Shown: in pieces, positions 13,290 to 34,444 of the stretch | Numbering within the stretch: position 1 is the stretch's first letter | Layout: each line of letters starts with the position of its first letter | Assembly: GCA_949358305.1 (NCBI GenBank) | Contig: OX442314.1 | Location: forward strand, 57,297,369-57,361,368 | From: Strigamia acuminata | Taxonomy: Eukaryota; Arthropoda; Chilopoda; Geophilomorpha; Linotaeniidae | DNA length: 64,000 nt | Reading direction: 5' to 3' | Translations under genes and position numbers: made by a program | The notes under the pieces: generated by a model | The model's database searches: none | The model's input: only the letters and a program-made list of their open reading frames with translations | What the model was told of the DNA's origin: nothing

Positions 13290-14851
13290 GACATTTCAGG
13301 CCAGCCACCAAATTCATTGGCTGCAAGCATAGCCTGCATCATGCTGTGTTGGGCAGCGGCGATTGTTTCCATTGCTGCTTTAGCGGCTTCCACTTTAAGG
13401 GGGCAATCCCTTTCAAAGTGTGCGCCACCGCAGCCCCAGCAACCGCCAACTCTTGGTTTGGTCGCATAGTCTTTGAGCCTATTGCTCGGGACTAGCGCCT
13501 TCTCGTTGCCTTCTGCGGCCTTTGTTGCTGCTATCGCAGCATTTTTAGGCGCAGGGAACAGTGTTCTATTGTTTGGATTTCTCAATCCAAACGGAACAAA
13601 TTTCGGTTTATCTCCACCCGCAGCATTTGGTATTGTTACCATTTGCTGGTTGGATTTTTGAATTGGCGTAACAGTTTCTGTTTTTGCCGCCTCAATGATT
13701 GCTGCATTTGTCACAGTTTCCTGATTTATGATCGCGGCCTCCGTAGCAATGCAAGCTTTCCTGAGCGACGCCCAAGTGTTCTCTAAATTAATGGCATTTG
13801 CGACCATGTTCTTGGCCGCTGGGCGCAGAATTGCCAGCACTTTTTGAATTTGCTGGCTCTCGTGCACAGGAATAGTCAATTGAGCGTATAACTTCTCGAG
13901 TCTTATCACCACTTGGGTGGCAGACTCATGAGACAGTTGCTGTGTTTTAGCAATTTCTGCTAAAAGCAGCGCATCGCTCGGACGAAAATGGGTGATAAAT
14001 TCATGTTCGAATTCCTCCCAATTCGTTTTGGCATGAGAAGAGAACCATGTGGCCGCATCTCCTCGGAAAAACTTAAACAAATGCTCAGCAAGCACTTGGT
14101 TCAGATAGGGCAAAGCAAAGCGTAGAGAACGTTTTAAATCAATAAGGAAAGACTTAGCTTTCGTTTTGTCCCCTGCAAACGCTTCAATTCCAATGGATTT
14201 GACTCGTTTACTTAGCTCTACTTCATCCATTGGCCTGGGAGCAGGCATAGCCTGGTCAGTTTTGTGAAGAAACTTTTCTCCCCAAGCCAGAAAAAGAGGA
14301 TTTCCAGTCGTAGGCGTTGAGCCTGTGCTGGATCCAGAGTTTGGTGTTGTCACGGTGGGAGAAATCGTGTTTGAGATTGCAGATTGTGCTCTCAAATTCG
14401 ATTGTCCAGCCGCCACCACGCTGTCAACGATAGCTTTTTGACTAGCTATCATCTTCAACAAGCTTTCATTCGATAATTTCGCAGAGTCTAACTCCTGCAA
14501 AGCATGAGTTAACCGGTCGCTAATATCACCGAATTCCGTGCGCGTTTGCGTTAATTGACGCATAGTGCTATCCGATTTGTCTTGGAGTTCCACCAAGTGA
14601 TCGGCTACTTTCAGAAGCGTGTCTTCCCACACTTCGTAGGTTGTCATATCATCGATAACTAGATTAAAGACGTTGCAAGTCGTTTCAAGCATCGCTTGAT
14701 CCAACAATTTAACTTTAGGACTTGACATATCGTCGTTTGAAGAAGCAATCGAATTGTTATCCGAGTCGTTCAAATCTGAATCCGTTGCGGGTGTGAAAGA
14801 ATTAGGTGCAGGAGAGTCCCACGTGGTCTTACCAGTTCTGGTCGCTGGCAT
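13250..14851 (-). CDS. gag: Element 1 gag, capsid and nucleocapsid precursor
   Basis: This structural polyprotein has about 533 residues from the start I chose at 14851, an ATG whose following residues (M-P-x-T-R-x-G-K) are shared with the related gag at 53681. The open frame extends to 14944, but those 31 codons lack that support. A coiled-coil-like N-terminal region is followed by a capsid-type domain (about residues 215-370, with F-K-F-F-R-G-D and H-F-R-P-S-D-A-L-L). Near residue 470 a single zinc knuckle of spacing C-x2-C-x3-H-x4-C appears. The stop at 13250-13252 lies 10 codons after the slippery heptamer. Confidence 0.9.
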   Translation of the reverse strand: MPATRTGKTTWDSPAPNSFTPATDSDLNDSDNNSIASSNDDMSSPKVKLLDQAMLETTCNVFNLVIDDMTTYEVWEDTLLKVADHLVELQDKSDSTMRQLTQTRTEFGDISDRLTHALQELDSAKLSNESLLKMIASQKAIVDSVVAAGQSNLRAQSAISNTISPTVTTPNSGSSTGSTPTTGNPLFLAWGEKFLHKTDQAMPAPRPMDEVELSKRVKSIGIEAFAGDKTKAKSFLIDLKRSLRFALPYLNQVLAEHLFKFFRGDAATWFSSHAKTNWEEFEHEFITHFRPSDALLLAEIAKTQQLSHESATQVVIRLEKLYAQLTIPVHESQQIQKVLAILRPAAKNMVANAINLENTWASLRKACIATEAAIINQETVTNAAIIEAAKTETVTPIQKSNQQMVTIPNAAGGDKPKFVPFGLRNPNNRTLFPAPKNAAIAATKAAEGNEKALVPSNRLKDYATKPRVGGCWGCGGAHFERDCPLKVEAAKAAMETIAAAQHSMMQAMLAANEFGGWPEMSGNEESQSTETPE

Positions 14852-17053
14852 TGACACAATGTGACCAAAAGCAGGACCGCAGCTTGCAAGGTGAACAAGT
14901 GGAATTAAGTCACGACCAATGAGGAGACAGGAGATTAGGCTCAAGTAGCCATTCTTGGGAGAGGGATTAGTGATGTCACTTCCCCCCCCTGGTTTCCCAT
15001 TGGTAGAAAAATTAAATTAATTCATGGAATTGATTTCCCAGAGTTCCAAGAAAATGTCAAAATTTAAAATTCCAATCATTCTCGAAAATTCCGAGATTTC
15101 CACATGTTTTTCTATTGTTTTCAGGTCGCCATCTTGATTTTTTGACAAAAAATAAAACTTTGACCAATATAAATGCCGAATTTTCTCCATTTCTGAAGAG
15201 AAACAACATTTTTTTGAAAGCAAAATAGAAATTTGTTTGGAACTAGAAGTTCTGAACCAGATCAAAATGGTCTGATTCCACAAAAACATGACTTTTGTGC
15301 TTTCCTAAAAAAGCACGAAATCATGTCTGTAGAACTTCGAAATTTTCAAACCAGTTAATTTTATCATTGTTGGCAACAAATAACAAAATCAAACCGCGCT
15401 AGCGCGCAGACAAACCGATTCTTGATGCCTCGCAAGAAGAAACAGAGGAAGAAAGATAAGAAAATAAAAATAAAAAATTACAAAATACTGGGTGTTTTTT
15501 AATCTAAAAGACACTCAAAAAGTTCCAATTTTTAGCAGAAGGTTTTTGCAGATATTTACACTACGGGGATATTGTTGCAATCTCTTCTTCTGCCCCAAGA
15601 GACCAACAAACGCGCCCGCTCACCCCTTTCGGAGACTCATTCCAGTCTGCACGAGGCTGCCTTTCGACAGAAACGTGCCTACACTGAGATGTCTGTTCAT
15701 CCCAATGAAATGGTGTTTTTTGTGGAACAGTCAGTTGCACTTAAAGTAAGAAGGAAATACATCTTCTGTCCCTAGTCGCCTTGGGTCCCACCCTTCAGCC
15801 GCCATTGTGAAGCCATATCGCCCTCCATTTGGCGCTGTATACAACCCGGCATTTGAGGTGATTACTACCGCTGTCAGGTGTGGAGTCCCAAGAAAACCAT
15901 GAAAATCATAGATAGGGAAGTTTAGAGAAAAAGTAAAAAATGAAAAAGATGTAAAAACAACTAATTTCCAAATTACAGAGATTGCTCCAGACTGTGGTTC
16001 GAGCACAGTCCTTTAACAAACTGCAGTAGCCCAGAAATCAAGCAAGAGTGAATAAAATTCAGAAACAAAAGTTACAGGCTAGATTCCCAATCTTTTTTCA
16101 AAGTTGGTAGCTACCTGATCGCACAGATATCGTTCCTACGCCCTAACGAACTCTCTGTGCCATTTGAGCACTTCACCATCGGTATCCCCGTACCTCTGGC
16201 AGCTCTCCCTGCTGTCCGTGTCCCAATTTCAGCAACTCTTGGGTTAAATACGTTAACTTGCAGTTGCCTACCAACCAGTACACGGGACAGGGTAGGATTA
16301 TGACCGATGTGAACCCGGATGAGCGCCTTGAGCAGCCACAACGCAACCCATAAATTATGAGTCGCAACAAAAATCAAGGCAGTCTTCCCATGTGTGCGGA
16401 CACTTCGCTGCTACTCGGGTCCAACTACACGCCAACTCACCGCACGTGACTGTTCCCGCGCCAGCGACCACTAAGCTAGCAACCTGCATCCAAGCGACTA
16501 AACGTCCTACAAGAAATTTGGTGTCACTCAAAGCTCAGTTCAACATCGCCTCCTCGCCCGGCCCATAATGGAACCAGTGATTGCAGCGTGGCACCTGGAA
16601 TATGACCGCTTCTCCCCCGTGGGATTTGGTTTGCTGGTGGCCAACAGCGCGCCTCCTCCACGAATCGAGTTTGAATACGCTGCAGACTGTCCCATTACTT
16701 TTACTTGGGCTGCGCACCAAGAAATAGAAATAATAAAGAAGGTTTGGAATTATATTCCCCTCCCAACCACTCAGTTTTTTAGGCTAAGCTAGAAAGGAAT
16801 AGAAGACCGTTGGAAAGTGTGGCTAGTGTAAGTCCCGGCTTGCCAGTACCCAGGCAAGCTGGACATGCAAAGCCACCAATTTTTGTCTGATCAGGGTCCA
16901 ATGGTCAGCGATTAGCGGCCGTTTCGCCTGCTGACCCCCTGTCACAATCATGACCAAGGAAATTTCCCCCTCTAGTTGAAAGAAAAAATTCATTTAATAT
17001 TGTGCTTCGCACAATCAGTAAATTAGAATAGTATTCGCAAGAGAATTCAAAAT
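14852..17053 (-). other. 5' leader of element 1
   Basis: A 2.2-kb untranslated leader between primer-binding site and gag. It is clearly related to 51410-53680 of element 3; landmarks near 16905 and 51540 are nearly identical. Only short open frames occur. Such a long conserved leader may hold packaging or translation-initiation signals. Confidence 0.7.
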
Positions 17054-17071
17054 CCTGGACGGGCCCACAAT
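17054..17071 (-). promoter_or_regulatory. Primer-binding site of element 1
   Basis: Directly inside the 5' LTR the minus strand reads ATTGTGGGCCCGTCCAGG then ATTTTGAA. This resembles the tRNA-Pro-complementary site used by several retroviruses (TGGGGGCTCGTCCGGGAT), with a few mismatches and a short offset from the LTR. Confidence 0.65.
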
Positions 17072-17694
17072 TGTGAGTGTTCGGACGGACGCCACGTGGT
17101 CGGGGGAGAGCCACGGAGGCGCTGGACGCAACACACACGATAAAACAAACCACGAAATACACGGAGACACAATATAGTTTTAGTTATGGCTTTATTGGAT
17201 GTCTAGGGGTATGATTGTAGTGTCCCATAGTGTATTTCCCAAGGCGGCGGTTCCTTCGAACCGTCCCTAATCAGACCGCGTGGCACGGCGGCCATCGGCC
17301 GCCATGACACACGAGGTCGGTAATCGGTTTTGGGCCACGCCGCCGAAGTTACGGTTAACGTCCGGCGGACGTGGCGCAACTGGACGCTCAGGTCCCGGCG
17401 GGCGATATCATCGCCACGCCGATAGTTTGGGTTATCTCAATAGCCAGTTTCGGAGGCGGTCGCAACACGACCGTTCGCCTTGCTGGTTGATCAACAACTC
17501 TCTTGTCCCTACGGGGACCAACCACTTCCGGAAGGGCGACTTCCGGGGCCCGATCCTGCTTGACCAAAGGCCCGCAGCTCCACCTGGTTGCGGGGGACCG
17601 CAACAGGCTGCGCGAGATACGAGAGGCGCTGGAGCTGCGCCAAGTGCATTGCCGTTGCAGTGCAGCGACCCGTGCGCAGGGGCAGCTGGTCACA
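17072..17694 (-). repeat. 5' LTR of element 1
   Basis: This 623-bp copy is identical, as far as I can read, to 6899-7521, with a primer-binding site on its inner side and ATAA outside. The U3 start is TGTGACCAGCTGCCCC and the end is ACACTCACA. Confidence 0.93.
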
Positions 17695-17698: not shown

Positions 17699-18940
17699 TA
17701 AATAGTGAATTACACCTTGGACTACTATAATAGTCAAAGATTACATCGACATCGAAGCTGACTTGTGAGTTTGTTTGGGTTCTAAATGTTGTATAATGCT
17801 TTTTCCTAATTTCGCGTTTTATTTTTTCGCGTTTTATTTTATCGCGTTTCCGCCTTTTTGCGATTGCTTTTTTCGCGATTTGATTGTTCGCGATTAATTT
17901 CATTTAATTTTGTAATCGCAAAAATCGCGTTTTCTCCTTTTCTCGATTTCTTTTATCGCGACGTCCCGGCAGCTTTGTTTCGTTTCCTTTCCTGCTTCAC
18001 GTTCTACTGGCTTGACCGGTGCGACAGAACTCTCGAGGTAAGTTATTTGTGTTGCATATTACACCTAACACCGCACTAATTTACGTGTTTCTTTTCCCTT
18101 AGATCTCCGAGAGTCCCGCATCTCGACGCATCAAATCCAACAACGGTAAAACACAGATTAAACCAATGGACGTTTAATACCTCTTATAGCGGAAACGATC
18201 CGGACTGGAGTGTACGAATTTAAGCAAGACGAGTTCATCGCTAATTTCCACACCACCTAAAGGCTTTCTTCAACCCTAGTAAAAAATATCGAGACCATTT
18301 GAAAGAATTGGAATCGATACCTTAGGACCATTTCCACTATCAAATTGTTTTGCATAGATGACTTTTGATTTTATATTTATCAAATTCAGAAGGTTCTTAT
18401 TATCAGTGCACTAAGTGTTTGCATGTCAGCGTGACATTTTTTCTGTTTATCTAACAAGTAAGTTTTTCGTTTTTAGTCTCGAACTCAGGTTATTGTACTT
18501 TTAGGCATTCATTTGTTCCTGCAATGGTAGGAATCTGCACTTTAATTCCCCGTTTTCGTGTTAATGTTAACAGCCCCATTTTCGAGTGATATGTTGACCT
18601 GCCTGTGTTTTATTTTTTCTTACAAGTTAGTTTGTAGCTGCTTGCCTTATTTTGTTAAACCAACGAATTTTGGACAAGGAGTCCATTCGCGGGTGATGCG
18701 TACAGGCAGCGAGATTGGTTGGCGCGCCATGCCAATTCGCACCAACCAATCTCGTAGGTACAGCACAAGATGTATAAGAGCGACAGTTCAGTGGAGTTAA
18801 GTTGGCTTTCGAAATTTTATTCTCGGTAGTGACATATTTGGCTATCTCACAAATGACCACAAATGCGCACAAATGCGCCAGCAATATGAAGTGTTTGTGT
18901 CAAGTTTTTGCCACTACAGCCCGCCAAGTTTGGCCATGGG
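17699..18940. other. Intergenic stretch with a TCGCG-rich block
   Basis: No gene recognised. At 17811-17962 the pentamer TCGCG occurs about seven times in T-rich sequence. A dispersed repeat shared with 6590-6707 lies at 18782-18910. The rest is unassigned. Confidence 0.5.
18782..18910. repeat. Dispersed repeat, copy B
   Basis: Diverged copy of 6590-6707, slightly longer because of a duplicated GCGCACAAAT-like segment. Confidence 0.75.
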
Positions 18941-20141
18941 GCAGTCATACTGCCAAAATGAATTTGTTTGAATTTTTCCCTTAGTTTGTGTGTGTTGAAA
19001 GTGTTATCAATTGTGTTCATAATTTTCCCGCAAGTTATTGTGCATAATTTAAGTTTTGTTTAATATAATTCCAAACGTGTAAAATGCTGTCCTCTGATTG
19101 GTCAGTTCGTGAAAAGATTTGTGCTTTTCTTTAATGTTCACTCTTTTGTAGTTGGGTTACAGTTAGGTTTGTCATGTCATGTATTTCTAACCTTTATTAT
19201 GACCAATTTGGCACATTCAGTTTGTAGTTAAGTGTATTTTTACGGTATAAGTTGTCACAGGAATGGATTTCACACTTGTGTTTAGAATTTCCCACCTAGT
19301 TTGAATGTCAATCCAATCTCTTTTTGTTTCGCGCCCTAAACCAGCGCACCCATTTCCCACCTAGCCGTATCTAGAAGTTCTCTAGAAGCCACGATTTTTT
19401 ACCACCACGCCTAGTGTCATTCTCTTCCCCAGTTTTGAGTGATGAAACTAGGTATTCTACATTATTTTAGCAAACATACACGTGAGCAGGAATTCTGTAC
19501 TGTAATAAGTACGGAAGTCTCATGTTCTGTTGTTTATTTATTACAGTAATCTCTCACTTGGGATTTATTTTTCATGCACTTTAATTCTCCGTTCAGGAGG
19601 TGTTGAGAAAATTCCTGCAGAAAGCACGCAGTTGCAAATCGATGGAAATAATGAATTCGATTATTGCAACGATGATAAATCCGTTAAAAGTGATGGTCCT
19701 GATCCTAATAATGAAGGCGACATTGATTGAAATACCGCAGCTCTTAATTTGAAACCGGGCGTTTATACAAACCCAACCAGAAAAAGTCTAAAATCAATAA
19801 AAAATAATAATACCAGTAATAATTTATCTGGAAAATTAACGGAATGTGTTTTTTTGTAATTAATGAATGTTTTTTTGTAATTAATGAATGTTTTTTTGTA
19901 ATTAATGAATTTTTTTTTGAAATTGATGAATGTTTCTTTTTGATTGGAGCCATAACGTTGGTTTACCGTCGCGCGTGGAACGTAACACCAAAATGGAGAA
20001 ATTGTACAATATAGGACCGACTAACCAACCGAACGTCTGAGGCACGTTATCTGAACGTTACATTTACCCGGCGCCAATTTGAAGCCCGGGGCGTATTGAA
20101 TTTTGGGCGGCTCATACGGGGCCGGCGTTTTAATAAACCCC

Positions 20142-20145
20142 GGCT
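20142..20145. repeat. Target-site duplication GGCT, left of element 2
   Basis: GGCT precedes the LTR start here and at 33334-33337. It follows the LTR end at 34426-34429. Confidence 0.8.
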
Positions 20146-21233
20146 TGTGGTGACCTCAAATATTCCTATTTGAGTGCGCACCATATTTCCAAATTGTCTT
20201 ATAAACATATTCAACAAGCGTATATGTTTTGTTTCAATGTAAATTGAAATAAAACATACATTAATAAAATATAAAACAAGACACAATATTACCCAAATAA
20301 TATTGTGTTTTGCAGCAAGTTTTGGCCCAGCAACAGCGTCAACCAATCGCGCTGCAGCGTGCATTGCTTTGATGATGCTGCTAGGCGTGTGCCTGGGCGG
20401 AGCATCCCTTCCCCTCGCGCGTGCCCGGCTCAATTGTTGCACACGACCCGAAGGCGGCCGTGTGTGATCTTTGTGCAACTCGTCATCTGCGCAGCTTTTC
20501 TGAGCAGATTTAGAAGTGAGCCAAACGGTTTTGGCCCACTCTTCCCGCACTCTTGATTCCACCTCCAAACTGTTCACAACCGTGTCAAACTTCTGCCAAA
20601 ACTGCAAAGTGTGATCTGTGATTCTTGGACGAATTGAGTTTCATTGCTGGTCTGTACCAACTGTACAGAATAGCGCCTTCCTGCTTGAATTACTACGTGT
20701 AATTTAAGCCATTTCTGTGTGTGAATTGACATTGAGCTTGCTCTGTCAATTTGAAGGCTTTGTGTCGAGTTTAACTCCACAAAGCGATCTGTGTTAAGAC
20801 GGATTGTTACGTCGAGCTTGCTCCGTAATAATCGAACCGCTGTGTGCAAGACGTATTCTCGTGTTGAGCTTGCTCCGCGAGGATTTTTAGTATATTCAGC
20901 AACGTATTTTAGCGTTGAGTTTACTCCGCTAAAATCCCGCGCTCACACGACGCCATCGACGCCATTTTGGAGCCAACGGTCAACTGTGAGTGTCCAAGTA
21001 CAAAGAGAAGCCAGATCGACCCAGTCATTACATTATTATTATTATTTCCCCTTTGCATATATCCAGTGTATTTAGAACGATTAAAACAATCTAATTTTTC
21101 CTTTTACTCTCCGTGTAAAAATCATTCCCCTAGACAACCATTTAGCCACAGAGTAGAAGTCCTGTACGGCATCTCACCGACGATTGCTTATTGAATTTAT
21201 ATAATTTAATAAGTAAAAACCCGGATCGCCGCA
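20146..21233 (+). repeat. 5' LTR of element 2
   Basis: This 1088-bp LTR lies between GGCT and the primer-binding site. AATAAA-like signals occur about 100-120 bp from its start. Its centre carries the hairpin array described separately. A consensus splice donor, AACT/GTGAGT at 20985-20986, lies downstream of the array and could serve a spliced RNA. Confidence 0.92.
20651..20935 (+). promoter_or_regulatory. Array of seven hairpins in the LTR, five sharing one apical motif
   Basis: Two plain hairpins come first: TCTGTAC/GTACAGA (20651-20669) and a 10-bp stem at 20684-20708. Five motif-bearing ones follow, with stems AATTGACA/TGTCAATT (20724-20751), GCTTTGTG/CACAAAGC (20757-20785), GATTGTTACG/CGTAATAATC (20802-20833), ATTCTCGTG/CGCGAGGAT (20855-20884) and ATTTTAGCG/CGCTAAAAT (20906-20935). 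The stems are unrelated in sequence, yet each encloses T-Y-GAG-Y-TT-R-CTC; the second has one extra base. That apex can form a 2-nt 5' bulge, a GAG/CTC upper stem and a Y-TT-R loop whose closing pair covaries (C-G or T-A). This suggests a repeated RNA recognition element, provided the region is transcribed. An exact copy lies at 33843-34127. Confidence 0.8.
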
Positions 21234-21234
21234 C

Positions 21235-21254
21235 TTGGGGGCCCGGCCGGGATT
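21235..21254 (+). promoter_or_regulatory. Primer-binding site of element 2
   Basis: TGGGGGCCCGGCCGGGAT starts two or three bases after the LTR. It matches the tRNA-Pro-complementary site TGGGGGCTCGTCCGGGAT except at two positions. Confidence 0.75.
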
Positions 21255-21325
21255 GTTTTGATTGTTAAAATCCGATTTTTGCAAAAAGATCCTTTATTTC
21301 CATTGTTCTTTTTCAATTTGACAAA

Positions 21326-24220
21326 ATGGCGACGCCAATGCAAATTGTAAAACGACAGCGAGGTCGACCAAGCACTCAGAAACGAGCAGCGACGGTTTTG
21401 CCGGCTCTCGAACCTGAAATGCTTATGGAGAAAATTATTTCCGAGGAAATAACACCAGTTCCAGATCCGAAACAACTTAAGGATGCTGAAAATGAAGTTG
21501 CTAGAGCATTAAGCGCTTCAAGTGCGAGTTCTAACGACCAAGAACTCCCGCCACTTCCACTGGAGGAAGTGGAAAATACGTTACGTGAAATGGAAAGTGA
21601 ATCGTCTCACGAATCACCTCCTCGCATGACCATGCTGGATGCTTTGAGAAATCAAGCACGCCAGGATGGCGCCCAAATAACGGACGACATGACGGTGGAA
21701 GAGATTCATCGCGCCATGATACGACTTCACACTGATCGTGCCGTTTCAAATTTACAATTTGAAATGAAACGAAAAGAAGCTGAGCTTCAACAACAAAAAG
21801 CGGAGGTTGAGCTCCAACACATGGAACTCAATCGACAAAATGAGGAATTTCTAGCCCAAAAAGCTAGAGAATACAGATTAAAAGGTGAAGTGGAAGATCT
21901 TTCTAAAATGAATACTAGAAATGAACTTTCAATTCGCTCACACCAAGAGGCGCAAAGACAGCTCGAGCTTACCAAAAGTAAGCTGGAGCAGAAAAATAAA
22001 GAACTGATTGATTTGGCAGACCACTACCAACGCAATCATAATCAACTAGTGAGATATGCTGCTGAATTAGACACACGTGCTAAAACACAGCGTACTCGCG
22101 AAAGCAAAATAGCTAAGCGTGAAGACGAGATTTTCCACTCGCTGGATCAACCCAGTACGAGCGGACAAGTCAAGTCTAGCGGCCCTGCTAAGCGATTACA
22201 ACCAGAAGAATCGCAAAATCAAATAAATGAGAATGAAATTCTCCGAGCTGATTTGTTGCGCGCTCAAGAAGAGCTTGCAGAAATGAAAGATCGTTTACAA
22301 GCAAGAAATTATACTGACCAATTGGTGCAACCAGAAATGGCTGCGCCAACTGTCCCTATTTTGACTCCCGAAACAATAACAATTTCTGTTGTTTCAGAGT
22401 TAAGTAGCCAATCTGGATTATCGAGTGATGACGACCAACGTTCGCGTCGTCGCCATCGCTCAAAAAGAAAACGTCCTTCAGATTCTGAGGAACGGAGAGC
22501 TGATCGCAATCCGCTCCCTGGTAATCGAAACCCTATTTTTCACAATAGTGACCGACTGTTGGGAATGGTAGACGATCGAAACAGACGACATGAAACAGGT
22601 ATTCACGTTGCCCGAACGATACCCCTGGCTCAGCAGCAAGATTCGTCGAAAAGAAGTCGACGAGACACCAATCCAGCACGCGAACCGCCGGACAGACATG
22701 AAAGCCCGCCAGGTGGGGGTCAGTATAGAAGAAATCCACCAGATGGAGGAAATCCAGATGGACATGGAGATGGACCACCTGGAGGTGGACGTCGACCGCC
22801 AGACGATGACGGCGACCCACCCGACCCACCTGAAACACCACATTTTAACACGCCTTCAAATTCACAATCTGATTCAAGGTCGGATTCTGATGTGAATGCG
22901 CAACAAGAACGCGATAATCGACATCGATCTCATCGACGTCGACATCGAGGCCATTCTTCTCGGCGTAATACGCATTATTACACTGCTGAAGAAATTGATC
23001 GATTATTAGCTGATCGTCGATCTTCCGATCGATCTGACGCTACTGCCGATAATGCTGACATCGCATTACGACAGAAAATTGCCCAATATACTGCAATCAA
23101 CTGGACTCACGATCTAGTTGATGAAAGAACTATTAGATGGGATCACATCAAACCCGCTTTATTCGATGGAGAATGGGAAGCTGGATCCACTCTTTTAGAT
23201 GAAGTTTTACGAATTTCAAGGTTGAATGGCATTGCATGTCACACTGCTTTGAAAAGAGTAGTACCTAAAGCTCTTATAGACCGAGCTGAGAAATGGTTTT
23301 ATTCTAAACAATTTCAAAATTGGAACCACTTTGTAGAAGAATTCATGACTGAGTATGGAGAGTCAAGTAAAGACTTATTACAAATGTGGGATAATCTTTC
23401 TCAAAATAAAGGCGAAAGTCTTCGCTCTTATTTAAGAAGGACTGAGGATTTATTGGTCACTCTCCCTTATACGATGGGAGACGCAGCCATTGATCGTCAA
23501 TTCCGACGTGGATTGACAGATTATTCAAAGAATGTTCTACTTTCTGTACGAGCACCTTATCCGGGTGGTTTCGCTGAATTAGCCAAATTTATGCGAGCTA
23601 ACCAGATAAGAATTGATGAGAATTATAAAGCTTATCTACCAGCTGATGAAAAAGTTGCGTATGCTAAGCGACAGCAACGGAGAAAGGAGTTGGCAAACGA
23701 CACACGTTTTGCTAACACCCCTCTTTTGCAACCCCCAAAACGAGGAGATTTTTTGGCAGAAACTGCTAAAGAATCAAAAAAGGGATCGGATGGAAAAAAT
23801 CCTCATCCAACCCCTAAAGCTCACTTAGCCGAAGTGACTGAAATGGAGGCTGCTTCTGAACCAGAGAAATCTGACTCGGAACCAGAAAGTGAGGCTGCAG
23901 CTGCTTTATTAGCCCGTAATAACGCAGTAGCTCGAAAATTTGGACCAAAGATGGCGCCTAAAAACGTTACTTTTGGTTCACCAAAGACAGACGCGCTCAG
24001 TAGATCGAAGTCGCCGACCCCTAAAAAGGACGAAGCCAAACGTTCAAGTTCGCCTTCGCCAAAAGTCGCGAAATCACCTGCTACTGACCCATGTAACATC
24101 TGCAAAAAATTGGGACATTGGGCTAAAGAATGTCCTGATAGGAAATCGAGCAAAGACAAGATCATTGAGGAGTTCGAAAAATCGATGAAATCAATCGGCG
24201 AACTTCTAAAAAACTTGTAA
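21326..24220 (+). CDS. gag: Element 2 gag, large capsid-nucleocapsid precursor
   Basis: The 964-residue protein starts at an ATG 92 bp after the LTR and is long for a gypsy gag. Residues about 140-280 form a strong coiled coil rich in Gln, Glu and Lys. Residues about 360-560 are disordered, with Arg/Ser/His-rich and Gly/Pro-rich blocks. Residues about 600-770 resemble the Ty3/gypsy capsid domain (W-F-Y-S-K-x-F near 665, F-R-R-G-L near 730). An acidic linker leads to a zinc knuckle, C-N-I-C-K-K-L-G-H-W-A-K-E-C (C-x2-C-x4-H-x4-C), at about residue 922. The stop follows a slippery heptamer by one codon. Confidence 0.9.
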   Translation: MATPMQIVKRQRGRPSTQKRAATVLPALEPEMLMEKIISEEITPVPDPKQLKDAENEVARALSASSASSNDQELPPLPLEEVENTLREMESESSHESPPRMTMLDALRNQARQDGAQITDDMTVEEIHRAMIRLHTDRAVSNLQFEMKRKEAELQQQKAEVELQHMELNRQNEEFLAQKAREYRLKGEVEDLSKMNTRNELSIRSHQEAQRQLELTKSKLEQKNKELIDLADHYQRNHNQLVRYAAELDTRAKTQRTRESKIAKREDEIFHSLDQPSTSGQVKSSGPAKRLQPEESQNQINENEILRADLLRAQEELAEMKDRLQARNYTDQLVQPEMAAPTVPILTPETITISVVSELSSQSGLSSDDDQRSRRRHRSKRKRPSDSEERRADRNPLPGNRNPIFHNSDRLLGMVDDRNRRHETGIHVARTIPLAQQQDSSKRSRRDTNPAREPPDRHESPPGGGQYRRNPPDGGNPDGHGDGPPGGGRRPPDDDGDPPDPPETPHFNTPSNSQSDSRSDSDVNAQQERDNRHRSHRRRHRGHSSRRNTHYYTAEEIDRLLADRRSSDRSDATADNADIALRQKIAQYTAINWTHDLVDERTIRWDHIKPALFDGEWEAGSTLLDEVLRISRLNGIACHTALKRVVPKALIDRAEKWFYSKQFQNWNHFVEEFMTEYGESSKDLLQMWDNLSQNKGESLRSYLRRTEDLLVTLPYTMGDAAIDRQFRRGLTDYSKNVLLSVRAPYPGGFAELAKFMRANQIRIDENYKAYLPADEKVAYAKRQQRRKELANDTRFANTPLLQPPKRGDFLAETAKESKKGSDGKNPHPTPKAHLAEVTEMEAASEPEKSDSEPESEAAAALLARNNAVARKFGPKMAPKNVTFGSPKTDALSRSKSPTPKKDEAKRSSSPSPKVAKSPATDPCNICKKLGHWAKECPDRKSSKDKIIEEFEKSMKSIGELLKNL

Positions 24221-24249
24221 GCGCGCATCCAGACGGTCTAGTGGATGCG
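24208..24249 (+). promoter_or_regulatory. -1 ribosomal frameshift signal of element 2
   Basis: The heptamer A-AAA-AAC (24208-24214) lies in the gag frame one codon before its stop, and pol continues in the -1 frame. Nine bases downstream CGCATCC (24224-24230) pairs perfectly with GGATGCG (24243-24249). Inside the loop AGAC can pair with GTCT. The heptamer, spacing and stem fit the classic retroviral arrangement; the same heptamer is used by MMTV gag-pro. Confidence 0.88.
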
Positions 24250-27200
24250 ACGCCCAACGCCTCGGAAAATGAACTAACACCATCTCAAATTTTAGATGAA
24301 TTTTTGAATACTCAGATTAAATTAGAAATCGAAAATAATTTAATATTTCCAAAAATTGATGTTTCCAGTTTAAGGCTTGTGCTGCAAAATGAAAACATCA
24401 CTGAGGAATTTTTTAAAGAAAAAGTTCAACAAATAAAAGTTGATTGGGAATCTAAAATAAAAGATGCTGTTACTTTACTAGATGGAAAAGCTAGGCCCAC
24501 ACCTGAAATTGTTGAAAGGTCAGATAAAATTGATTTACCTGGTCTTGACGATTGTATTGAAAAATTAATGGCTACAACATTAGTCACTAATGATTTATTG
24601 GACGAATTACCATTGGATCCGCCGATAGAAATTAAGCCACCGCGACGTTTTAGATGCAAGTACGCGGACATACCAAACAGCAATGATTTGCCGACAATTC
24701 GATTACAGACGGCAAACGGTATGATAACAGGGATGTTAGACTCTGGAGCTAATCGAAGCTTCATGGCCTACTCCGTAGTAATTTCGCTGAAACTGGAAGA
24801 TGAAATTCGACCAATTGGACCGGATGTGAGAGTTACGACTGCTTCCGAAGACGTAGTCCCTGAAGGAACTCTCCTACTTTCTTTTGCGTGGACACACGGG
24901 ATGTTAAGTCATCCATTCATAATTTTAAGAAATAAATATCTTATTATTTTATTAGGATGTGATTTCATGAATCGACTCAACATACAACCAAATCCTAAGA
25001 CCATGTCTTGGAATTTTGTTAAGTCTTTGAAAGAAGATTTACCTTTTGTTCCTCAAGCGATTCTTGATCGTTATCAAGAGTTCCTTGATCCACCCGAAGA
25101 AATAATGAGACGCGACTTTATTAAAGCAAATCACATGAAAGCTGGTTCCGCCACTGCATGTCAAGCTAAAGTTGCCGATGAAGAAAATATAGTACAAAGA
25201 CTTGTTAGCGATGCTAATTTGTCAATGGAAAATAATTTAATGCTTGAAAAAGTATTAAAGAAACATGAAAAGATTTTATCACGCCGACCAGGTAGAACAC
25301 ACCTCGTTAGGCATGAAATTAAACTGGACACTAAAGTTCCAATTAGAGTTCCGTTTAAAAGCGTAAATCCACAAAAACGTGAAATTATCCGTCAAATCTG
25401 TCAAGATATGTTGGATAATGGGTACGTTGAACAAGCCACTGGAGACTATGGGATGCGAATAGTTCTAGTGATGCGTCCGGATTGTGATCCGAGACTCTGC
25501 ATTGATTTTAGACCACTCAATGCACATACATTATACGATCCTCCTCAAATGCCGAGCATTGAGGAAATCTTGCGAGAACTCGGAAGATTTGAATGGGTCA
25601 CAACGATAGATTTGTCAAAAGGCTATTGGCAGATAGAGGTTCATCCGAACGACCGTGCTAAAACTGCGTTTTGGAGCCCTTTGGGTCGACTACAATTTCG
25701 AGTCATGCCCTTTGGCCTCGTAAATGCGCCGTCAACTTTCCAAAAGTTGATAGAAAAGATTTTGGGGGACGCCTATCGAAAATTCGCATGGGCATACCTC
25801 GATGATATAATTATTATATCAAAAAATTTTGAAGAACACATGATTCATCTGGAAGAAATTCTGAGTAAACTTGAAAATGCAAATCTTCATGTTCATCCAG
25901 AAAAATCGAAATTTGGCAGAAAAGAATTAACTTTTCTAGGTTACAAGTTAAGTGTTCAAGGAGTTAGTGTCGACCCTAAAAAAGTCGCCGCTATTAAAGA
26001 AATGCCAGCTCCTTCAAATTTGAAAGAGTTGCAGAGATTTTTGGGAATGGTGAACTTTTTTCACCGATTACTTAAAAATCTGGCAGTCATGACAGAACCT
26101 CTACGTCCTTTACTCAAAAAGGATGTGGAATTTATTTGGTCAGAAATTCAGCAAGAAGCTTTTGATCAAATAAAAGATGCTTTAACGAATGCAGAGACGA
26201 TGGCCATGCCTGATTTGACAGAACCATTTATTGTGCATACCGACGCTAGCAGGAAAGGACTAGGCGCCGCGCTTATGCAAATGAGAAAAATCGATGATCA
26301 AAATATCGAAGTGCCTTGTGTTTATGCCAGCAGAAGTTTGCAACCTGCTGAGATAAATTACAGCGCCACAGAATTAGAATGCCTTGCGGTAATATGGGCA
26401 TTACGTAAATTTCGACATTATTTGGAATTTACCACATTTATAGTAAGGACTGACCATCAAGCATTAAAATGGTTGATGCAGTTAGACGAACCTGCCGGAA
26501 GGTTGGCACGTTGGCAAATGGAGCTGATGCGCTATTCTTTCGAAATACAATACATTAAAGGTCCACTAAATGTTTTAGCGGATGCTTTATCCAGATCACC
26601 GATTGACAAACCGGAAAATCCTGAAGATGATGGAGATAATGACGAATTATTATCTTACTGTCCATCACCTCAACGAAATTGGAAAATGGGAAAATTTCAT
26701 GAACTTCCTGTCTCCACGCTGGAGGAAAAGGAAGATCACGAATTCGTCAACTACTGGACTAAAATTTATGACCCCTCTGAGGAATCAGATGACGTCATAA
26801 GAGCGCAAATTTCAAGGAAATTTCAAATTCCTTCGTCAAATGTTTTAATAAAAGCATTTGTCGCCAAAGTCGTAGAGCGTCTTGATTGTGAACCCCCCAC
26901 AAGGGAAGACATAATCAAGGCCCAAAAAGAAGATAAAGTTTGCCAATTGATGCGTAATTTTTTAAATTGTAATCAATTTCCGCCTGACGTCACAACGCGA
27001 CTCCAGAAGAAACAATATAGAAAACACGCAACCACCTTCTTAATTGAAGATGACTTATTAATGCAATTTCATCCCACAATGTCTGATGAATTGGGGGAGG
27101 ATGGGAGAGCACTCAAAGTTTTTGTACCTCAGACATTGAAGTATAAAATTATTTGGCTAATGCATGGCCACCCACTTTCTGGCCACCCAGGAATTGCAAG

Positions 27201-28689
27201 GACTCTTTATCGAGCACGCCGAATTTATACCTGGAAAGGCATGAAATCGGACATTACGAGATTCATTCGACATTGTGAGCGTTGCCAAGCTTGCAAACCT
27301 CGAACGAAAGGACAAATTGAAGCAGCGCAAATGGGTCCTTACAGCCCATTTGACTGTCTAAGTGTTGATTTGACCGGCCCGAAACCTCGGACGCGCAAAA
27401 ATAACACACATATTTTAGTCATACTTGACGTGGCAACTCATTGGCCAGAATTATATCCAATGTGTAACCCCACTGCTGGAAAAGTGGCAAATTGTATTTA
27501 TCACCTTTCCATGAGCATGGGATTCCCTCGTAAAATTATTTCTGACAACGGCCCGCAATTTCGTGCCCAAGTCTTTAAAAAATTTTGTGAAAAGTTCAAG
27601 ATGGTTCCAACACCAACTTCAACGTATCACCCACAAGCTAACCCGGTTGAAAGGATTAACCGTGACATCAAATATTTGGTTGCAATTTATTCATCTGTTC
27701 ATTCCAAATGGGACGAATATTTGCGTGAATTTGCATTTAGTTTGAGAACTACGGTGACGAGAGGAAGAGACTTCTCTCCCGCATTTCTTAACTTTTTTCG
27801 CGAACTCAGAGTACCTTGGGATCCAAGAATACCTGAAGGAATTTTGGTCGTAGATCCAAAAAACCCACATTTATACGTGCAAAAGTTAGAAGCCGTTATC
27901 GCCGAAACATATCAACACATGATGTCACACGTGTTAGATTTGCGTAGACGAGTTAATCTTAAAAAAGAAGGTGAGAAGTTCTCCAATTTTAAATTAAACG
28001 ATTTAGTTTGGAGAGATTCTCATGTTTTGTCGAGCGCTGCCCGCGGCATTGCAGCTGGCATCGCTGATAAAAGAACAGGACCTTATGTAATAACCAAAGT
28101 ATTACAGGGAGGTTCGGTGGAATTGAGAAAGCTAGAAAATAACGAAATATTTCCAGCTGTCCATTCGTCAGAATTAACTCCGTATTTCCCGAGTTTCGAT
28201 CAGGAAGTATGGTTAGAAGGCGAAGAAGTCGGTCAAAAGACTGAAAATATAATTAATACGTTAGATGACGATGAATTAAAGAAAATACCTGTCGATAATT
28301 CATCCAAACCACAAATGGAGTCAGACCTCGTGAATAACGACGTTGAACTTCGTGACAGTTTCAAAAAGCTTGAAATTGCTAAAAAATTAAATAAAAAGGT
28401 GTTTTTAGAAAAGAAACAAAAAACATCTGAAATAAAAGACTCATCTGACTCAGTCTCCGATGACAATGAAGACGGCGATTTAAATACAATAAATCCCTCG
28501 CCGACAAAGAGATATAATCTTCGGACTCGTAAACCGAGAGGAAAAAACAACATGTGTCTTCTCCCCTCGATAACCTCGAGATCCAGGGATCAGCCGTATG
28601 ACGTAAGGAGCAGTTCCCCAAGCCATACGCAAACCAATCAAACAATAAGATTGGATGACGTCACTAACCGCGACGTTACCCAAACGTAA
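24214..28689 (+). CDS. pol: Element 2 pol polyprotein (protease, RT, RNase H, integrase)
   Basis: The frame starts at the slippery site and has no ATG at its head, consistent with translation as a gag-pol fusion. Counting from 24241, the protease D-S-G-A is near residue 166, the reverse transcriptase Y-L-D-D near 518 and the RNase H H-T-D-A-S near 665. The integrase H-H-C-C zinc site is near 973-1017, with catalytic D, D and E near 1041, 1100 and 1136. The C-terminal tail after about residue 1310 is acidic then basic and unlike known domains. No stop or frameshift is present. Confidence 0.93.
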   Translation, partial: LVSAHPDGLVDATPNASENELTPSQILDEFLNTQIKLEIENNLIFPKIDVSSLRLVLQNENITEEFFKEKVQQIKVDWESKIKDAVTLLDGKARPTPEIVERSDKIDLPGLDDCIEKLMATTLVTNDLLDELPLDPPIEIKPPRRFRCKYADIPNSNDLPTIRLQTANGMITGMLDSGANRSFMAYSVVISLKLEDEIRPIGPDVRVTTASEDVVPEGTLLLSFAWTHGMLSHPFIILRNKYLIILLGCDFMNRLNIQPNPKTMSWNFVKSLKEDLPFVPQAILDRYQEFLDPPEEIMRRDFIKANHMKAGSATACQAKVADEENIVQRLVSDANLSMENNLMLEKVLKKHEKILSRRPGRTHLVRHEIKLDTKVPIRVPFKSVNPQKREIIRQICQDMLDNGYVEQATGDYGMRIVLVMRPDCDPRLCIDFRPLNAHTLYDPPQMPSIEEILRELGRFEWVTTIDLSKGYWQIEVHPNDRAKTAFWSPLGRLQFRVMPFGLVNAPSTFQKLIEKILGDAYRKFAWAYLDDIIIISKNFEEHMIHLEEILSKLENANLHVHPEKSKFGRKELTFLGYKLSVQGVSVDPKKVAAIKEMPAPSNLKELQRFLGMVNFFHRLLKNLAVMTEPLRPLLKKDVEFIWSEIQQEAFDQIKDALTNAETMAMPDLTEPFIVHTDASRKGLGAALMQMRKIDDQNIEVPCVYASRSLQPAEINYSATELECLAVIWALRKFRHYLEFTTFIVRTDHQALKWLMQLDEPAGRLARWQMELMRYSFEIQYIKGPLNVLADALSRSPIDKPENPEDDGDNDELLSYCPSPQRNWKMGKFHELPVSTLEEKEDHEFVNYWTKIYDPSEESDDVIRAQISRKFQIPSSNVLIKAFVAKVVERLDCEPPTREDIIKAQKEDKVCQLMRNFLNCNQFPPDVTTRLQKKQYRKHATTFLIEDDLLMQFHPTMSDELGEDGRALKVFVPQTLKYKIIWLMHGHPLSGHPGIARTLYRARRIYTWKGMKSDITRFIRHCERCQACKPRTKGQIEAAQMGPYSPFDCLSVDLTGPKPRTRKNNTHILVILDVATHWPELYPMCNPTAGKVANCIYHLSMSMGFPRKIISDNGPQFRAQVFKKFCEKFKMVPTPTSTYHPQANPVERINRDIKYLVAIYSSVHSKWDEYLREFAFSLRTTVTRGRDFSPAFLNFFRELRVPWDPRIPEGILVVDPKNPHLYVQKLEAVIAETYQHMMSHVLDLRRRVNLKKEGEKFSNFKLNDLVWRDSHVLSSAARGIAAGIADKRTGPYVITKVLQGGSVELRKLENNEIFPAVHSSELTPYFPSFDQEVWLEGEEVGQKTENIINTLDDDELKKIPVDNSSKPQMESDLVNNDVELRDSFKKLEIAKKLNKKVFLEKKQKTSEIKDSSDSVSDDNEDGDLNTINPSPTKRYNLRTRKPRGKNNMCLLPSITSRSRDQPYDVRSSSPSHTQTNQTIRLDDVTNRDVTQT

Positions 28690-28897: not shown

Positions 28898-31732
28898 ATG
28901 GAAGGAGAGGAACCGAAAGAAGGAAGCGAAGCCGGTGCCAACAGCCTCGAACTAGAAACGAATTCGACGCTGCTTGGTTCCGCAAATACTTCGAATACAT
29001 CCGTGGATGTCACCGAAGAATCCGCCGAAGCGTCCGCCGAAGCTCAAGCCGCTCTGGCCGACGCTGCAGCCCGTTTGCCAGTCGCGCCGCCCCGACCACA
29101 ACTTCGAGGAGGCCTATTCGCCGATCCAAACGGCGAAACTCGTGCACAGAGACACGACCGGGTAAATAATTTAAAATAAAATTACCTTTCAGTCATGAAA
29201 AGTAATTAAAAGTGCATTTTCACTCAGAAAAAGCGAAAAGTTCGTTGGTAACGCCTTCGCAAGAAGGCGCCGCCATTATTATCATCAGATGGCGCTGTGT
29301 CTCGTTTTTGAGGCGTTGCTACGGTAACGCTCCAACATTGAAACATAGCCGTCGGAAACAACGTTTTTCACGATTTTTCAGATATTTTGAAAAATTTAAT
29401 GAATCTAAACTGTCGAATGAAATCTCACCCGTGATTTTATTCACTGAAAATTCGGAAATAATTATTTTACACGAAAAAATGGATTTTAATTATTTCTTCG
29501 AATATTTTACAGATCATCCAGCTTCGGGAGACGCATCTCGAACTGCACCCCGATGTTCCGACCGCTCCTGGAGTCTGGCGACATGCATTGCCGCCAGAAA
29601 TCATCAAGTCCAAGGGGAGACTGACGTTTTGGGCGGCCCGACACAAATTCTCCAAGGCCTTAAACAAGCGATGGGGAACGAAGTTTCGGATCGCCTATTT
29701 AATCGATGGATTCGGTCATCGCGACGCCCTCGAGTGGGCAATGAAGCGCGATACCTTCGGACCACTGCGAAACGTGTTGCTCGACTTCGCCTTCACAGTG
29801 ATCACCCAAGAAACACGAGACCATCGCCGTTACTTCAACGCTCCTGCGTGGGAGCGTCGACAGATTTTGGAGGACATCTTCCAACGTCTTGACCAAACCA
29901 AGGCCGAGGTTGTACGCCTCTACCACGAATCTTTCCGTGTAACAACGGACGGAAAGAAACGTTGGGTGCCGACATGCCAGTCGGAAATGCATCAACTAGC
30001 CATGGGCGGATGTTTCCATGCTGATTTCGTGCCAAACCCGTATCCAGAGCCTGAGCCCCGGGTACAGGTCGCTTCCACCATCCACGTGGTGCCACCGCGC
30101 TCCACGTCGAGGTCACGATCATCGAGGTCGCCCTACAGTGGCCGTCGCTCCTCCCCAACACAGTCGTCGGGGGAAGGCGCCATTGGAGGGTTACCTCCAC
30201 TCCAGAAGGCTCGTCATCGCTCACATCACCGACGCGAGTCGACGCCGCCAAAAAGACATTCAAAGTCCGTTTCGAGACACTCGTCCCGAAGCCGACCTCG
30301 AGTGCAATCGCGCCAATCTTCCACGAGGAGTTCACTCTCGTCGCGTGAAGAACGATCCAACGCTTCACAGCTTAACGCTTCCTCCTCCGGCCGGATTGAC
30401 TGGTCGGACGAGATAGCGAAAGAAGATCGACGCATCGCCGCATTACAAGCCGGTCAAGGAGACGTCAACACCTCTTTGCCGTTCGCTTGCCGTCCAGTCA
30501 CCAGCGACATGCGACCAGACCCATCGGTGCCCGTGCCACAAGTGACATCGGTCATCCGTTTTGAGGGATACGTCTCTCAAGAACCATTTCCCGCACAGGA
30601 GTGCGCTGATCTCTGGAGGCGATTCTCATCGTTTCCCGAGACAGCCCAAGCGATGTACCTCGCGCATCTGGACGAATACCAACTCGCTCAGATCCGCGAA
30701 GGTGAGAAAGAATGGCAATGGCTTGCGCGAGAGCTTGCGTCGTGCAAGTCCGACAAGCAACTGCAACGGACGCTGCAGAAGATGAACAGGAAGTTGTCGG
30801 AGGGACTTCTTCGAATCCTGTTCCAAGGAGTCTTTCCCGACCCACAGATTGCTCTGGCAGCCGCCACTCGATTGTGGACCGTGCCGTTAGGGCTTCCACG
30901 AGCCTTGCTGGACGATTGGGAGTCAGTTCGCCCCGATCCTCCAACGATGCTCGCCGAATTGACGCAACAAGCCGAGGCGACTGGCGAAACTCCGGCTGGA
31001 TCCGCCATTCGACTACGGCAAGAATGGGCTACACTGAAGCAGCAGCGCGCAACGGAACGAGCCACCGCCCGTCCCGCTGGCGCACCACCGTCATCCGCAG
31101 CTCCACTCCACGCTGCCATCACGGCAACGTCGAGTGTTTCCCGTGCAACCGAGGCACCGAGTTGCAACATCTCGTCTCCAATGGAGTGGCTCGACAGCGA
31201 CGATCGCGAGTTCGTCGTGCCTGTGGCCAGCGGTGCCAGACCAAAGACGCGCACCCCGGCTTCGCGCAGATCCAGATCCCTCTCGATCTGCAAAAAGTCG
31301 CCGCCACCGCCGCCTCCTCCAAAGGATTCGCCGCCGAGAGATAGGGGATCAAAGATGGCCACCTACCTCACCGCCAATCAACGTTTGCGCTCATTATACG
31401 CCTTTTGCTACATAACGAGCGCAACGAAAACGATTCTCCAGAACAGCGAGGATTTATGGAACCGAGTCCTCGCGTGGCTGGAAAACCACATCAAGGAACA
31501 ACAGCCGTGGATCCTGCATCAACGCCTGGTGTTCGCCCGAATTACGCCTCAAGACCCGCAGGAGTATTTCGAGATGGGTTTTGGACGAAGGGATGGTGTA
31601 GACCGCATAAAGCAAGTGTGGCTCCACATCAACCCTGGCTTCCGGTCAGGACCAAACGCCGGCCGACCTTTGTGCACCGTCACAGAGCACAAAGATCCAA
31701 ACGATCATTCAACGGACATGCTGCCTAAATAA
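28898..31732 (+). CDS. Element 2 third gene, two coding exons, function unknown
   Basis: Coding exon 1 (28898-29161, 88 codons) begins M-E-G-E-E-P and is acidic. The donor CGG/GTAAAT and the acceptor TATTTTACAG/ATC keep the frame across a 351-bp intron (29162-29512). Exon 2 (29513-31732) gives a total of about 827 residues. The first 150 residues of exon 2 look globular, with W-A-A-R-H-K-F and W-E-R-R-Q-I segments. An Arg/Ser-rich stretch follows, then an alpha-helical part, a Pro-rich linker and a C-terminal domain of about 110 residues. There is no signal peptide, membrane segment or envelope motif. It occupies the envelope position but looks like a nuclear or RNA-associated accessory protein; that role is my inference. 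I recognise no family. Confidence 0.7.
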
Positions 31733-32132: not shown

Positions 32133-34425
32133 GCAGTCATACTGCCAAAATGAATTTGTTTGAATTTTTCCCTTAGTTTGTGTGTGTTGAAAGTGTTATC
32201 AATTGTGTTCATAATTTTCCCGCAAGTTATTGTGCATAATTTAAGTTTTGTTTAATATAATTCCAAACGTGTAAAATGCTGTCCTCTGATTGGTCAGTTC
32301 GTGAAAAGATTTGTGCTTTTCTTTAATGTTCACTCTTTTGTAGTTGGGTTACAGTTAGGTTTGTCATGTCATGTATTTCTAACCTTTATTATGACCAATT
32401 TGGCACATTCAGTTTGTAGTTAAGTGTATTTTTACGGTATAAGTTGTCACAGGAATGGATTTCACACTTGTGTTTAGAATTTCCCACCTAGTTTGAATGT
32501 CAATCCAATCTCTTTTTGTTTCGCGCCCTAAACCAGCGCACCCATTTCCCACCTAGCCGTATCTAGAAGTTCTCTAGAAGCCACGATTTTTTACCACCAC
32601 GCCTAGTGTCATTCTCTTCCCCAGTTTTGAGTGATGAAACTAGGTATTCTACATTATTTTAGCAAACATACACGTGAGCAGGAATTCTGTACTGTAATAA
32701 GTACGGAAGTCTCATGTTCTGTTGTTTATTTATTACAGTAATCTCTCACTTGGGATTTATTTTTCATGCACTTTAATTCTCCGTTCAGGAGGTGTTGAGA
32801 AAATTCCTGCAGAAAGCACGCAGTTGCAAATCGATGGAAATAATGAATTCGATTATTGCAACGATGATAAATCCGTTAAAAGTGATGGTCCTGATCCTAA
32901 TAATGAAGGCGACATTGATTGAAATACCGCAGCTCTTAATTTGAAACCGGGCGTTTATACAAACCCAACCAGAAAAAGTCTAAAATCAATAAAAAATAAT
33001 AATACCAGTAATAATTTATCTGGAAAATTAACGGAATGTGTTTTTTTGTAATTAATGAATGTTTTTTTGTAATTAATGAATGTTTTTTTGTAATTAATGA
33101 ATTTTTTTTTGAAATTGATGAATGTTTCTTTTTGATTGGAGCCATAACGTTGGTTTACCGTCGCGCGTGGAACGTAACACCAAAATGGAGAAATTGTACA
33201 ATATAGGACCGACTAACCAACCGAACGTCTGAGGCACGTTATCTGAACGTTACATTTACCCGGCGCCAATTTGAAGCCCGGGGCGTATTGAATTTTGGGC
33301 GGCTCATACGGGGCCGGCGTTTTAATAAACCCCGGCTTGTGGTGACCTCAAATATTCCTATTTGAGTGCGCACCATATTTCCAAATTGTCTTATAAACAT
33401 ATTCAACAAGCGTATATGTTTTGTTTCAATGTAAATTGAAATAAAACATACATTAATAAAATATAAAACAAGACACAATATTACCCAAATAATATTGTGT
33501 TTTGCAGCAAGTTTTGGCCCAGCAACAGCGTCAACCAATCGCGCTGCAGCGTGCATTGCTTTGATGATGCTGCTAGGCGTGTGCCTGGGCGGAGCATCCC
33601 TTCCCCTCGCGCGTGCCCGGCTCAATTGTTGCACACGACCCGAAGGCGGCCGTGTGTGATCTTTGTGCAACTCGTCATCTGCGCAGCTTTTCTGAGCAGA
33701 TTTAGAAGTGAGCCAAACGGTTTTGGCCCACTCTTCCCGCACTCTTGATTCCACCTCCAAACTGTTCACAACCGTGTCAAACTTCTGCCAAAACTGCAAA
33801 GTGTGATCTGTGATTCTTGGACGAATTGAGTTTCATTGCTGGTCTGTACCAACTGTACAGAATAGCGCCTTCCTGCTTGAATTACTACGTGTAATTTAAG
33901 CCATTTCTGTGTGTGAATTGACATTGAGCTTGCTCTGTCAATTTGAAGGCTTTGTGTCGAGTTTAACTCCACAAAGCGATCTGTGTTAAGACGGATTGTT
34001 ACGTCGAGCTTGCTCCGTAATAATCGAACCGCTGTGTGCAAGACGTATTCTCGTGTTGAGCTTGCTCCGCGAGGATTTTTAGTATATTCAGCAACGTATT
34101 TTAGCGTTGAGTTTACTCCGCTAAAATCCCGCGCTCACACGACGCCATCGACGCCATTTTGGAGCCAACGGTCAACTGTGAGTGTCCAAGTACAAAGAGA
34201 AGCCAGATCGACCCAGTCATTACATTATTATTATTATTTCCCCTTTGCATATATCCAGTGTATTTAGAACGATTAAAACAATCTAATTTTTCCTTTTACT
34301 CTCCGTGTAAAAATCATTCCCCTAGACAACCATTTAGCCACAGAGTAGAAGTCCTGTACGGCATCTCACCGACGATTGCTTATTGAATTTATATAATTTA
34401 ATAAGTAAAAACCCGGATCGCCGCA
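32133..34425. repeat. 2.3-kb duplicated block, second copy, ending in a complete LTR
   Basis: Same sequence as 18941-21233. The LTR within it (33338-34425) is bordered by GGCT on both sides (33334-33337 and 34426-34429), so it has the structure of a solo LTR at the original insertion site. The array of hairpins is present again at 33843-34127. Confidence 0.92.
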
Positions 34426-34444
34426 GGCTATTAAACGGGACATG

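Follow-up and report, generated by a model that had tools for sequence, protein, structure and literature searches.

A selected array of bulged RNA hairpins in the long terminal repeat of a Ty3-type retrotransposon from Strigamia acuminata

The retrotransposon and its surroundings

The window, that is, the whole 64,000-nt stretch of DNA analyzed here, comes from the centipede Strigamia acuminata and encompasses a plus-strand retrotransposon. Its 5' LTR, delimited by self-comparison and by the PPT preceding the start of the 3' LTR, occupies positions 20146..21233 (1088 bp, TGTGGTGACC...CGCCGCA), and a second full LTR with an identical hairpin array lies on the same strand at 33338..34425. The outer flanks carry a 4-bp target duplication, GGCT, read directly at 20142-20145 and 34426-34429. 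Within the LTR, ATTAAA at 21080..21085 on the plus strand is the likely poly(A) signal; AATAAA occurs at roughly matching places in LTRs of sister families, and variation among copies is lower in the bins from 21080 to about 21160 than in those just upstream. A likely primer binding site (PBS), TGGGGGCCCGGCCGGGAT, follows at 21236..21253 (plus strand), which we take to be tRNA-Pro-like.

Three plus-strand genes follow. The gag gene (21326..24220, 964 aa) encodes Retrotrans_gag and CCHC domains and an arginine-rich stretch near residues 529-550, pol (24241..28689, 1482 aa) has the RT-RNaseH-integrase order of the Ty3 type, and the third gene is an open frame of 714 aa (29588..31732) with an Arg/Ser-rich region at about residues 174-253. 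By domain order, TG..CA LTRs, PPT, putative PBS and short target duplication, this is a Ty3/gypsy LTR retrotransposon with a third gene. Its RT region is 33-45% identical to protein matches (among the 120 matches listed of 4913). The third gene, with its Arg/Ser-rich middle and well conserved C-terminal part, occurs in the sister families as well, including as an intact frame, 36% identical, in the family designated fam75, and had no Pfam, PDB or homologue match outside those families. Its profile yielded only a weak match to PDB (E 0.23), comparison with Gag profiles gave a probability of 0.7%, so that the idea of a second Gag was rejected, and the structure model built from the single sequence was not confident (pLDDT 40).

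The region has a complicated history. About 1.2 kb of duplicated DNA outside the LTR proper precedes both full LTRs (18941-20145 and 32133-33337), and the expected 3' LTR stops after 222 bp (31899-32120), an arrangement that looks like tandem duplication followed by LTR-LTR recombination, or like an assembly error. Elsewhere in the window, a second Ty3-type element on the minus strand (6899-17694) has identical 623-bp LTRs whose predicted fold is full of hairpins; it also contains another frame, of 424 aa, that matched nothing in Pfam. Copia-type frames lie on the minus strand at 55900-61327. A frame unrelated to transposons (38488-41166) contains an AAA_33 domain and is a probable host gene like NEDD4-binding protein 2; its best match is a protein of the centipede Strigamia maritima with 50% identity over 98% of residues 200-600, which by itself makes a myriapod, or another arthropod, the probable host.

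A hairpin array kept by selection

The array lies on the plus strand at LTR positions of about 500-790 and ends 145 nt before ATTAAA. It opens with two plain hairpins, P1 (20645..20675, with 5 outer bp that include wobbles and 7 inner bp at 20651-20657/20663-20669) and P2 (20683..20709, 11 bp). Five hairpins with a common apex follow: H1 (20722..20753, lower stem of 10 bp, bulge TT, GAGCTTGCTC), H2 (20757..20785, 8 bp, bulge TC, GAGTTTAACTC, with one extra base), H3 (20802..20833, 10 bp, bulge TC, GAGCTTGCTC), H4 (20855..20884, 9 bp, bulge TT, GAGCTTGCTC) and H5 (20906..20935, 9 bp, bulge TT, GAGTTTACTC). The first-pass annotation, made from the letters of the window, had described just such an array inside an LTR, with two plain hairpins ahead of five that share one apex on stems of 8-10 bp, and our analysis agrees, each stem abutting a 2-nt bulge on its 5' side; the extra apical base of the second hairpin and the closing pair of C-G (H1, H3, H4) or T-A (H2, H5) were likewise read correctly. 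Two details need amendment. G.T wobbles occur in three of the five stems rather than two (two pairs in H1, one in H3, two in H4), and the statement that the stems have no sequence in common, although right in that they differ, is slightly too strong. Specifically, H3, H4 and H5 are related: the 30-nt stretches ending at the apex of H4 and H5 are 80% and 67% identical, respectively, to that of H3, which makes tandem duplication the probable origin of part of the array.

Folding of the 285-nt region gave z = -5.2 for the plus strand and z = -4.0 for the minus strand, and on neither strand did any of 200 shuffles attain that stability. In windows of 150 nt across the array, z was only -1.0 to -4.8. 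A scan for the structure itself (a lower stem, a bulge starting with U and a GA../..TC upper stem) recovered exactly H1-H5 in the LTR, compared with a mean of 0.07 and a maximum of 1 apex hairpin in 300 mononucleotide shuffles, and detected none in four other LTRs, two of which belong to one family. In viral contigs (80 checked of the 113 stretches found), 206 GAGYTTRCTC motifs were present, the longest abutting stem being 3 bp. A known RNA family was rejected, as Rfam 15 covariance models gave no match at E up to 1 over 18900-21400, and so were miRNA-type hairpins, for which stems of 8-12 bp appear too short.

To assess conservation of the pairing, we collected 89 sequences, namely the 38 top BLAST matches of the array, 50 matches to an exact-apex pattern (some of which are one LTR taken twice or both LTRs of one element) and the window itself, and aligned the 51 distinct arrays among them. 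Standard pairs fill 4035 of the 4042 pair cells in these arrays (99.8%), compared with 35-45% when the partners are slid. Under a null in which an equal number of changes was placed randomly on a tree built from the non-stem columns, two sets of 500 runs gave means of 95.9 and 96.0% paired and maxima of 97.8 and 97.9%, so that none attained the observed value. Paralogous modules are mixed in two apex hairpins of the alignment, the first and the fourth (H1 and H2 in the window); when these are left out, 3003 of 3010 cells remain paired, the maximum of the null is 99.0%, and again 0/500 runs reach the observation. Compensated pairs number seven, a count reached in 0/500 and 1/500 null runs, but four of the seven sit in the mixed-paralogue hairpins and the remaining three were matched in 30/500 runs, so that this count alone is weaker evidence than it appears and not decisive. 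Clean cases do exist, namely pair 3 of P1, an inner pair that is C-G, T-A or T.G across copies, and window H5, with stems ATTTTAGCG/CGCTAAAAT, ATTTTGGCG/CGCCAAAAT or TTTTGGCA/TGCCAAAA.

One-sided changes of Watson-Crick pairs retained pairing in 16 of 22 cases (p = 4e-5), or 12 of 18 without the mixed hairpins (p = 0.001). When hairpins within one array were compared, 87 of the 168 pair comparisons differed on both sides and still paired, and 59 were identical. Upper stems vary by 1.4%, lower stems by 2.6%, the P1/P2 stems by 3.5%, linkers by 5.8% and the flanks outside by 7.1%, while the bulge/loop class reaches 6.2%, arising from the second bulge base and the loop. The hairpin array is thus a real RNA structure kept by selection, as the first-pass annotation had supposed, mainly on the strength of the pairing of 4035 of 4042 cells against the tree-aware null together with an excess of G.U over A.C among one-sided changes.

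Transcribed strand, apex and sister families

The latter excess also bears on the strand. Among the one-sided variants gained from Watson-Crick pairs, 16 are G.U, 3 are A.C and 3 are other (G.U versus A.C, p = 0.004), and omission of the two mixed hairpins leaves 12, 3 and 3 (p = 0.035). In addition, G.U is the majority form among copies for 7 of the 110 pairs, and these would be A.C mismatches if read on the minus strand. This bias, together with the majority G.U pairs, indicates that the selected molecule is likely the sense RNA, and an antisense or DNA reading is disfavored by the same polarity. The first-pass annotation had regarded a transcription start downstream of 20935, with no antisense RNA, as fatal to its proposal, and this objection is not valid. 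Transcripts of LTR elements run through U3 at their 3' end, and the genomic RNA would therefore still contain the array if it began downstream of 20935. The genomic RNA contains the array whether the start is upstream or downstream, and for the 5' leader to contain it as well, the array would have to fall within R or U5. The distances from P1 to the end of the LTR, 589, 612 and 633 nt in three families, would fit a start just upstream; initiator-like words (53 in the window compared with 68.5 expected) are too common to establish it.

Copies were sought in 237.5 Mb of genome (157 contigs). A two-apex pattern had 289 matches, a single LTR being able to yield several, and the reversed control gave 0. 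This is a young, abundant family: 85 of the 97 scored pol matches are 97-100% identical and 12 are 75-79% identical, and the copies scored, 40 of 271 candidates, are 95-100% identical. The number of hairpins varies by subfamily, with seven recognizable apex hairpins in 2, five in 13 and four in 5 of 20 loci found by pattern. As a check on ascertainment bias, six loci were picked by pol alone from the 85 matches at 97-100%; five of these have five hairpins each, and in the sixth (L224) the expected position shows no sequence similar to the window.

The apex consists of a U-N bulge, a G-A-G/C-U-C stem and a loop closed by Y-R. All 259 apices have U as their first bulge base; the second is U, C or, in two, A, the stem is GAG/CTC in 257 and GAG/CTT in the other two, and the loop, in the forms CTTG, TTTA, TTTAA and CGTG, ends in C-G or U-A throughout; most of these loci were found through array similarity or the exact-apex pattern, which favors a constant apex, so that some of the constancy is built in. 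A looser finder recovered the same apex features in 25 hairpins from five of the pol-chosen loci.

Two sister families, fam75 and a second family (c3, with c13 and c48), have pol genes 75-79% identical to that of the element and different LTR middles. Their LTRs contain hairpins at the places of P1 and P2 that match these in order and resemble them in shape, on other stem sequences (in c13, the P1 stem is imperfect), and from place and order we infer that these are homologous to P1 and P2 of the array. Comparison of c3 with c48 found five changed pairs, of which four keep pairing and one breaks it, too few to use. The structure scan detected no apex hairpins in the LTRs of either family. On this evidence, P1-P2 may represent the older core, and the apex array may be a module particular to one lineage. 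Beyond P2, the c3-family LTR is hairpin-rich, without a shared apex, and that of fam75 is not clearly so: we claim no array there, given that downstream of P2 the sequence folds barely more stably than its shuffles (z of -0.5 and -1.7 in windows from 451 and 526). The Gag of both sister families has arginine stretches, and by the same rule the third gene has one in c3 and none in fam75, so that the candidate arginine-rich binder and the apex do not track each other across these families.

The fam75 family (L210-L213, L220, L221) is itself very abundant, with 97 of 97 scored matches 98-100% identical and 81 with a 1422-aa open pol frame. Separately, the starts of U3 fold very stably, both in fam75 (first 150 nt of the L210 LTR, z = -7.4) and in the window (20146-20295, z = -5.0), and contain long palindromes that stand apart from the array.

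Candidate functions and comparison with known systems

Our proposal is that selection maintains the array as a sense-strand element of the retrotransposon's RNA, in which each of the five to seven hairpins would present an arginine-sandwich pocket, formed by the U-first bulge under an upper stem of G-C, A-U, G-C and Y-R pairs. The element's own arginine-rich protein, either Gag through residues ~529-550 or the third-gene product through its Arg/Ser region, would bind these pockets, the repetition of hairpins would allow multivalent, cooperative loading, and the protein, once loaded, could mark genomic RNA that has not been spliced, with nuclear export or packaging as the most likely purposes. 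The data establish the hairpins, their conserved pairing, the wobble bias towards the sense strand and the position-wise match to the core of the lentiviral TAR element; the binder, the cooperativity and the function are what we infer from these features. Protein docking is the likely function of the array, and the original suggestion that Gag, the third-gene protein or a host factor docks there is plausible. The complete scheme, in which an arginine-rich protein encoded by the element docks multivalently on the array and marks genomic RNA for export or packaging, we advance tentatively, rating its chances at slightly below even. The arginine-rich stretches in both Gag and the third-gene product were counted in its favor, and the sister families, which have arginine stretches but no apex, were counted against it, as were the difference of the loop from that of TAR and the absence of a homologue or a confident structure model for the third-gene product. 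In a bolder version, which we consider rather unlikely, an arthropod Ty3 lineage would have independently evolved a circuit of the Tat/TAR or Rex/RxRE type, with an arginine-rich element protein reading the hairpins of its own LTR. The third-gene product is the boldest candidate for this reader, and one might speculate that the sister families run the circuit with other RNA tips.

The failure of the arginine stretches of Gag and the third-gene product in the sister families to track the apex would be accommodated if the hairpins recruited a host arginine-rich protein, of the HEXIM/P-TEFb or SR type, to nascent or exported RNA, and 7SK RNA employs arginine sandwich motifs (PMC6189040); nevertheless, the element has arginine-rich proteins of its own, and we regard host docking as doubtful. 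It is similarly improbable, in our estimate, that the array is a general structural element serving as a translation leader or in RNA stability or genome dimerization. Each apex is nearly self-complementary and copies could pair between two RNAs, windows of 150 nt that fold much more stably than their shuffles occur in all four LTRs tested, folding alone shows a fifth LTR to be rich in hairpins, and the c3-family LTR has many hairpins without the shared apex; such a role, however, leaves the contrast between the fixed first and variable second bulge base unexplained, and the loops look too small for a kissing contact.

Two further explanations dispense with selection on the apex or on RNA. If the constant apex reflected only inheritance, in recent copies and recent duplications that have yet to diverge, then the 95-100% identity of the 40 scored copies (of 271 candidates) and the flanks common to H3-H5 would be expected; but linkers and flanks vary more (5.8 and 7.1%) than the upper, lower and P1/P2 stems (1.4, 2.6 and 3.5%), paralogous stems have diverged through paired changes beneath one apex, and the tree-aware null on pairing speaks against this account, which we consider highly improbable. 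Even less credence can be given to a feature of the DNA, such as repeated palindromic binding sites, cruciforms or palindromes produced by template-switch correction, arising without selection on RNA. Palindromes are abundant in U3 as well, the array seems to grow by duplication, and the minus strand folds well too (z = -4.0), and yet G.T is the majority form at seven pairs, and gains of G.U exceed those of A.C. Template-switch correction would give perfect complements and DNA sites would have no one-strand preference for G.T, so the DNA-level reading is disfavored.

Our search of the literature, covering titles and abstract openings of the papers listed and leaving most subscription journals outside its scope, found no such array in an LTR retrotransposon. 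If docking of an element-encoded protein holds, the array would stand as a well-defined cis-acting RNA element, open to experimental test, of an animal Ty3-type retrotransposon, and arginine-sandwich recognition of RNA, known from HIV and 7SK, would have arisen independently, and in repeated form, in an invertebrate retrotransposon. The natural subfamilies that differ in hairpin number, along with built-in stem variants, open structure and valency to comparison.

Among known systems, the packaging elements of Ty1 and Ty3 resemble this proposal in that they are cis-acting RNA of LTR retrotransposons on which Gag draws; the packaging sequences are described as not precisely defined and the RNA structure of Ty3 as uncharacterized in a 2016 review (PMC4974528), so direct comparison is impossible on that basis. 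With the RxRE of HTLV, an LTR RNA bound by Rex for export, the analogy is one of position only, as RxRE is a stem-loop element of 226-254 nt and the array is a row of equal hairpins in an element without an identified Rex-like protein. Stem-loop 1 of 7SK is similar in that a single RNA holds several arginine sandwiches, to which HEXIM or Tat binds (PMC6189040). It differs in that these motifs share a single helical turn, in a host RNA, whereas the array, with its candidate sandwiches, has one per hairpin in a transposon.

A further likeness is to lentiviral TAR (of HIV-1, and of HIV-2 with its UU bulge), also an RNA hairpin of a retroelement LTR with a U-first bulge below a GAGC/GCUC upper stem, and it is the arginine-binding core of TAR that the tips of the array resemble. 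TAR makes up the first nucleotides of its transcript. The apical hexaloop of TAR is the cyclin T1 contact; it is absent from the array, where the loop is YNUR, and the array further differs in belonging to a Ty3 element, in comprising five to seven copies and in the lack of a known Tat. As reported in PMC11885821, U23C and U23A abolish Tat binding to TAR, as does swapping G26-C39 or G28-C37, while any base serves at position 24, U25 is deletable and UU is natural in HIV-2. The array has a bulge of this kind, with the first U that is essential in TAR, under G-C, A-U and G-C pairs. The first-pass annotation had called the apex reminiscent of, and not homologous to, TAR; the likeness holds, but it is closer than was claimed, because the positions essential in TAR are fixed here and the dispensable one varies. 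The sequence prerequisites of an arginine sandwich, in which the bulge binds an arginine and a U-A-U triple takes part, are present, although its formation is at most predicted, and this position-by-position match to the demands of TAR is probably a case of convergence.
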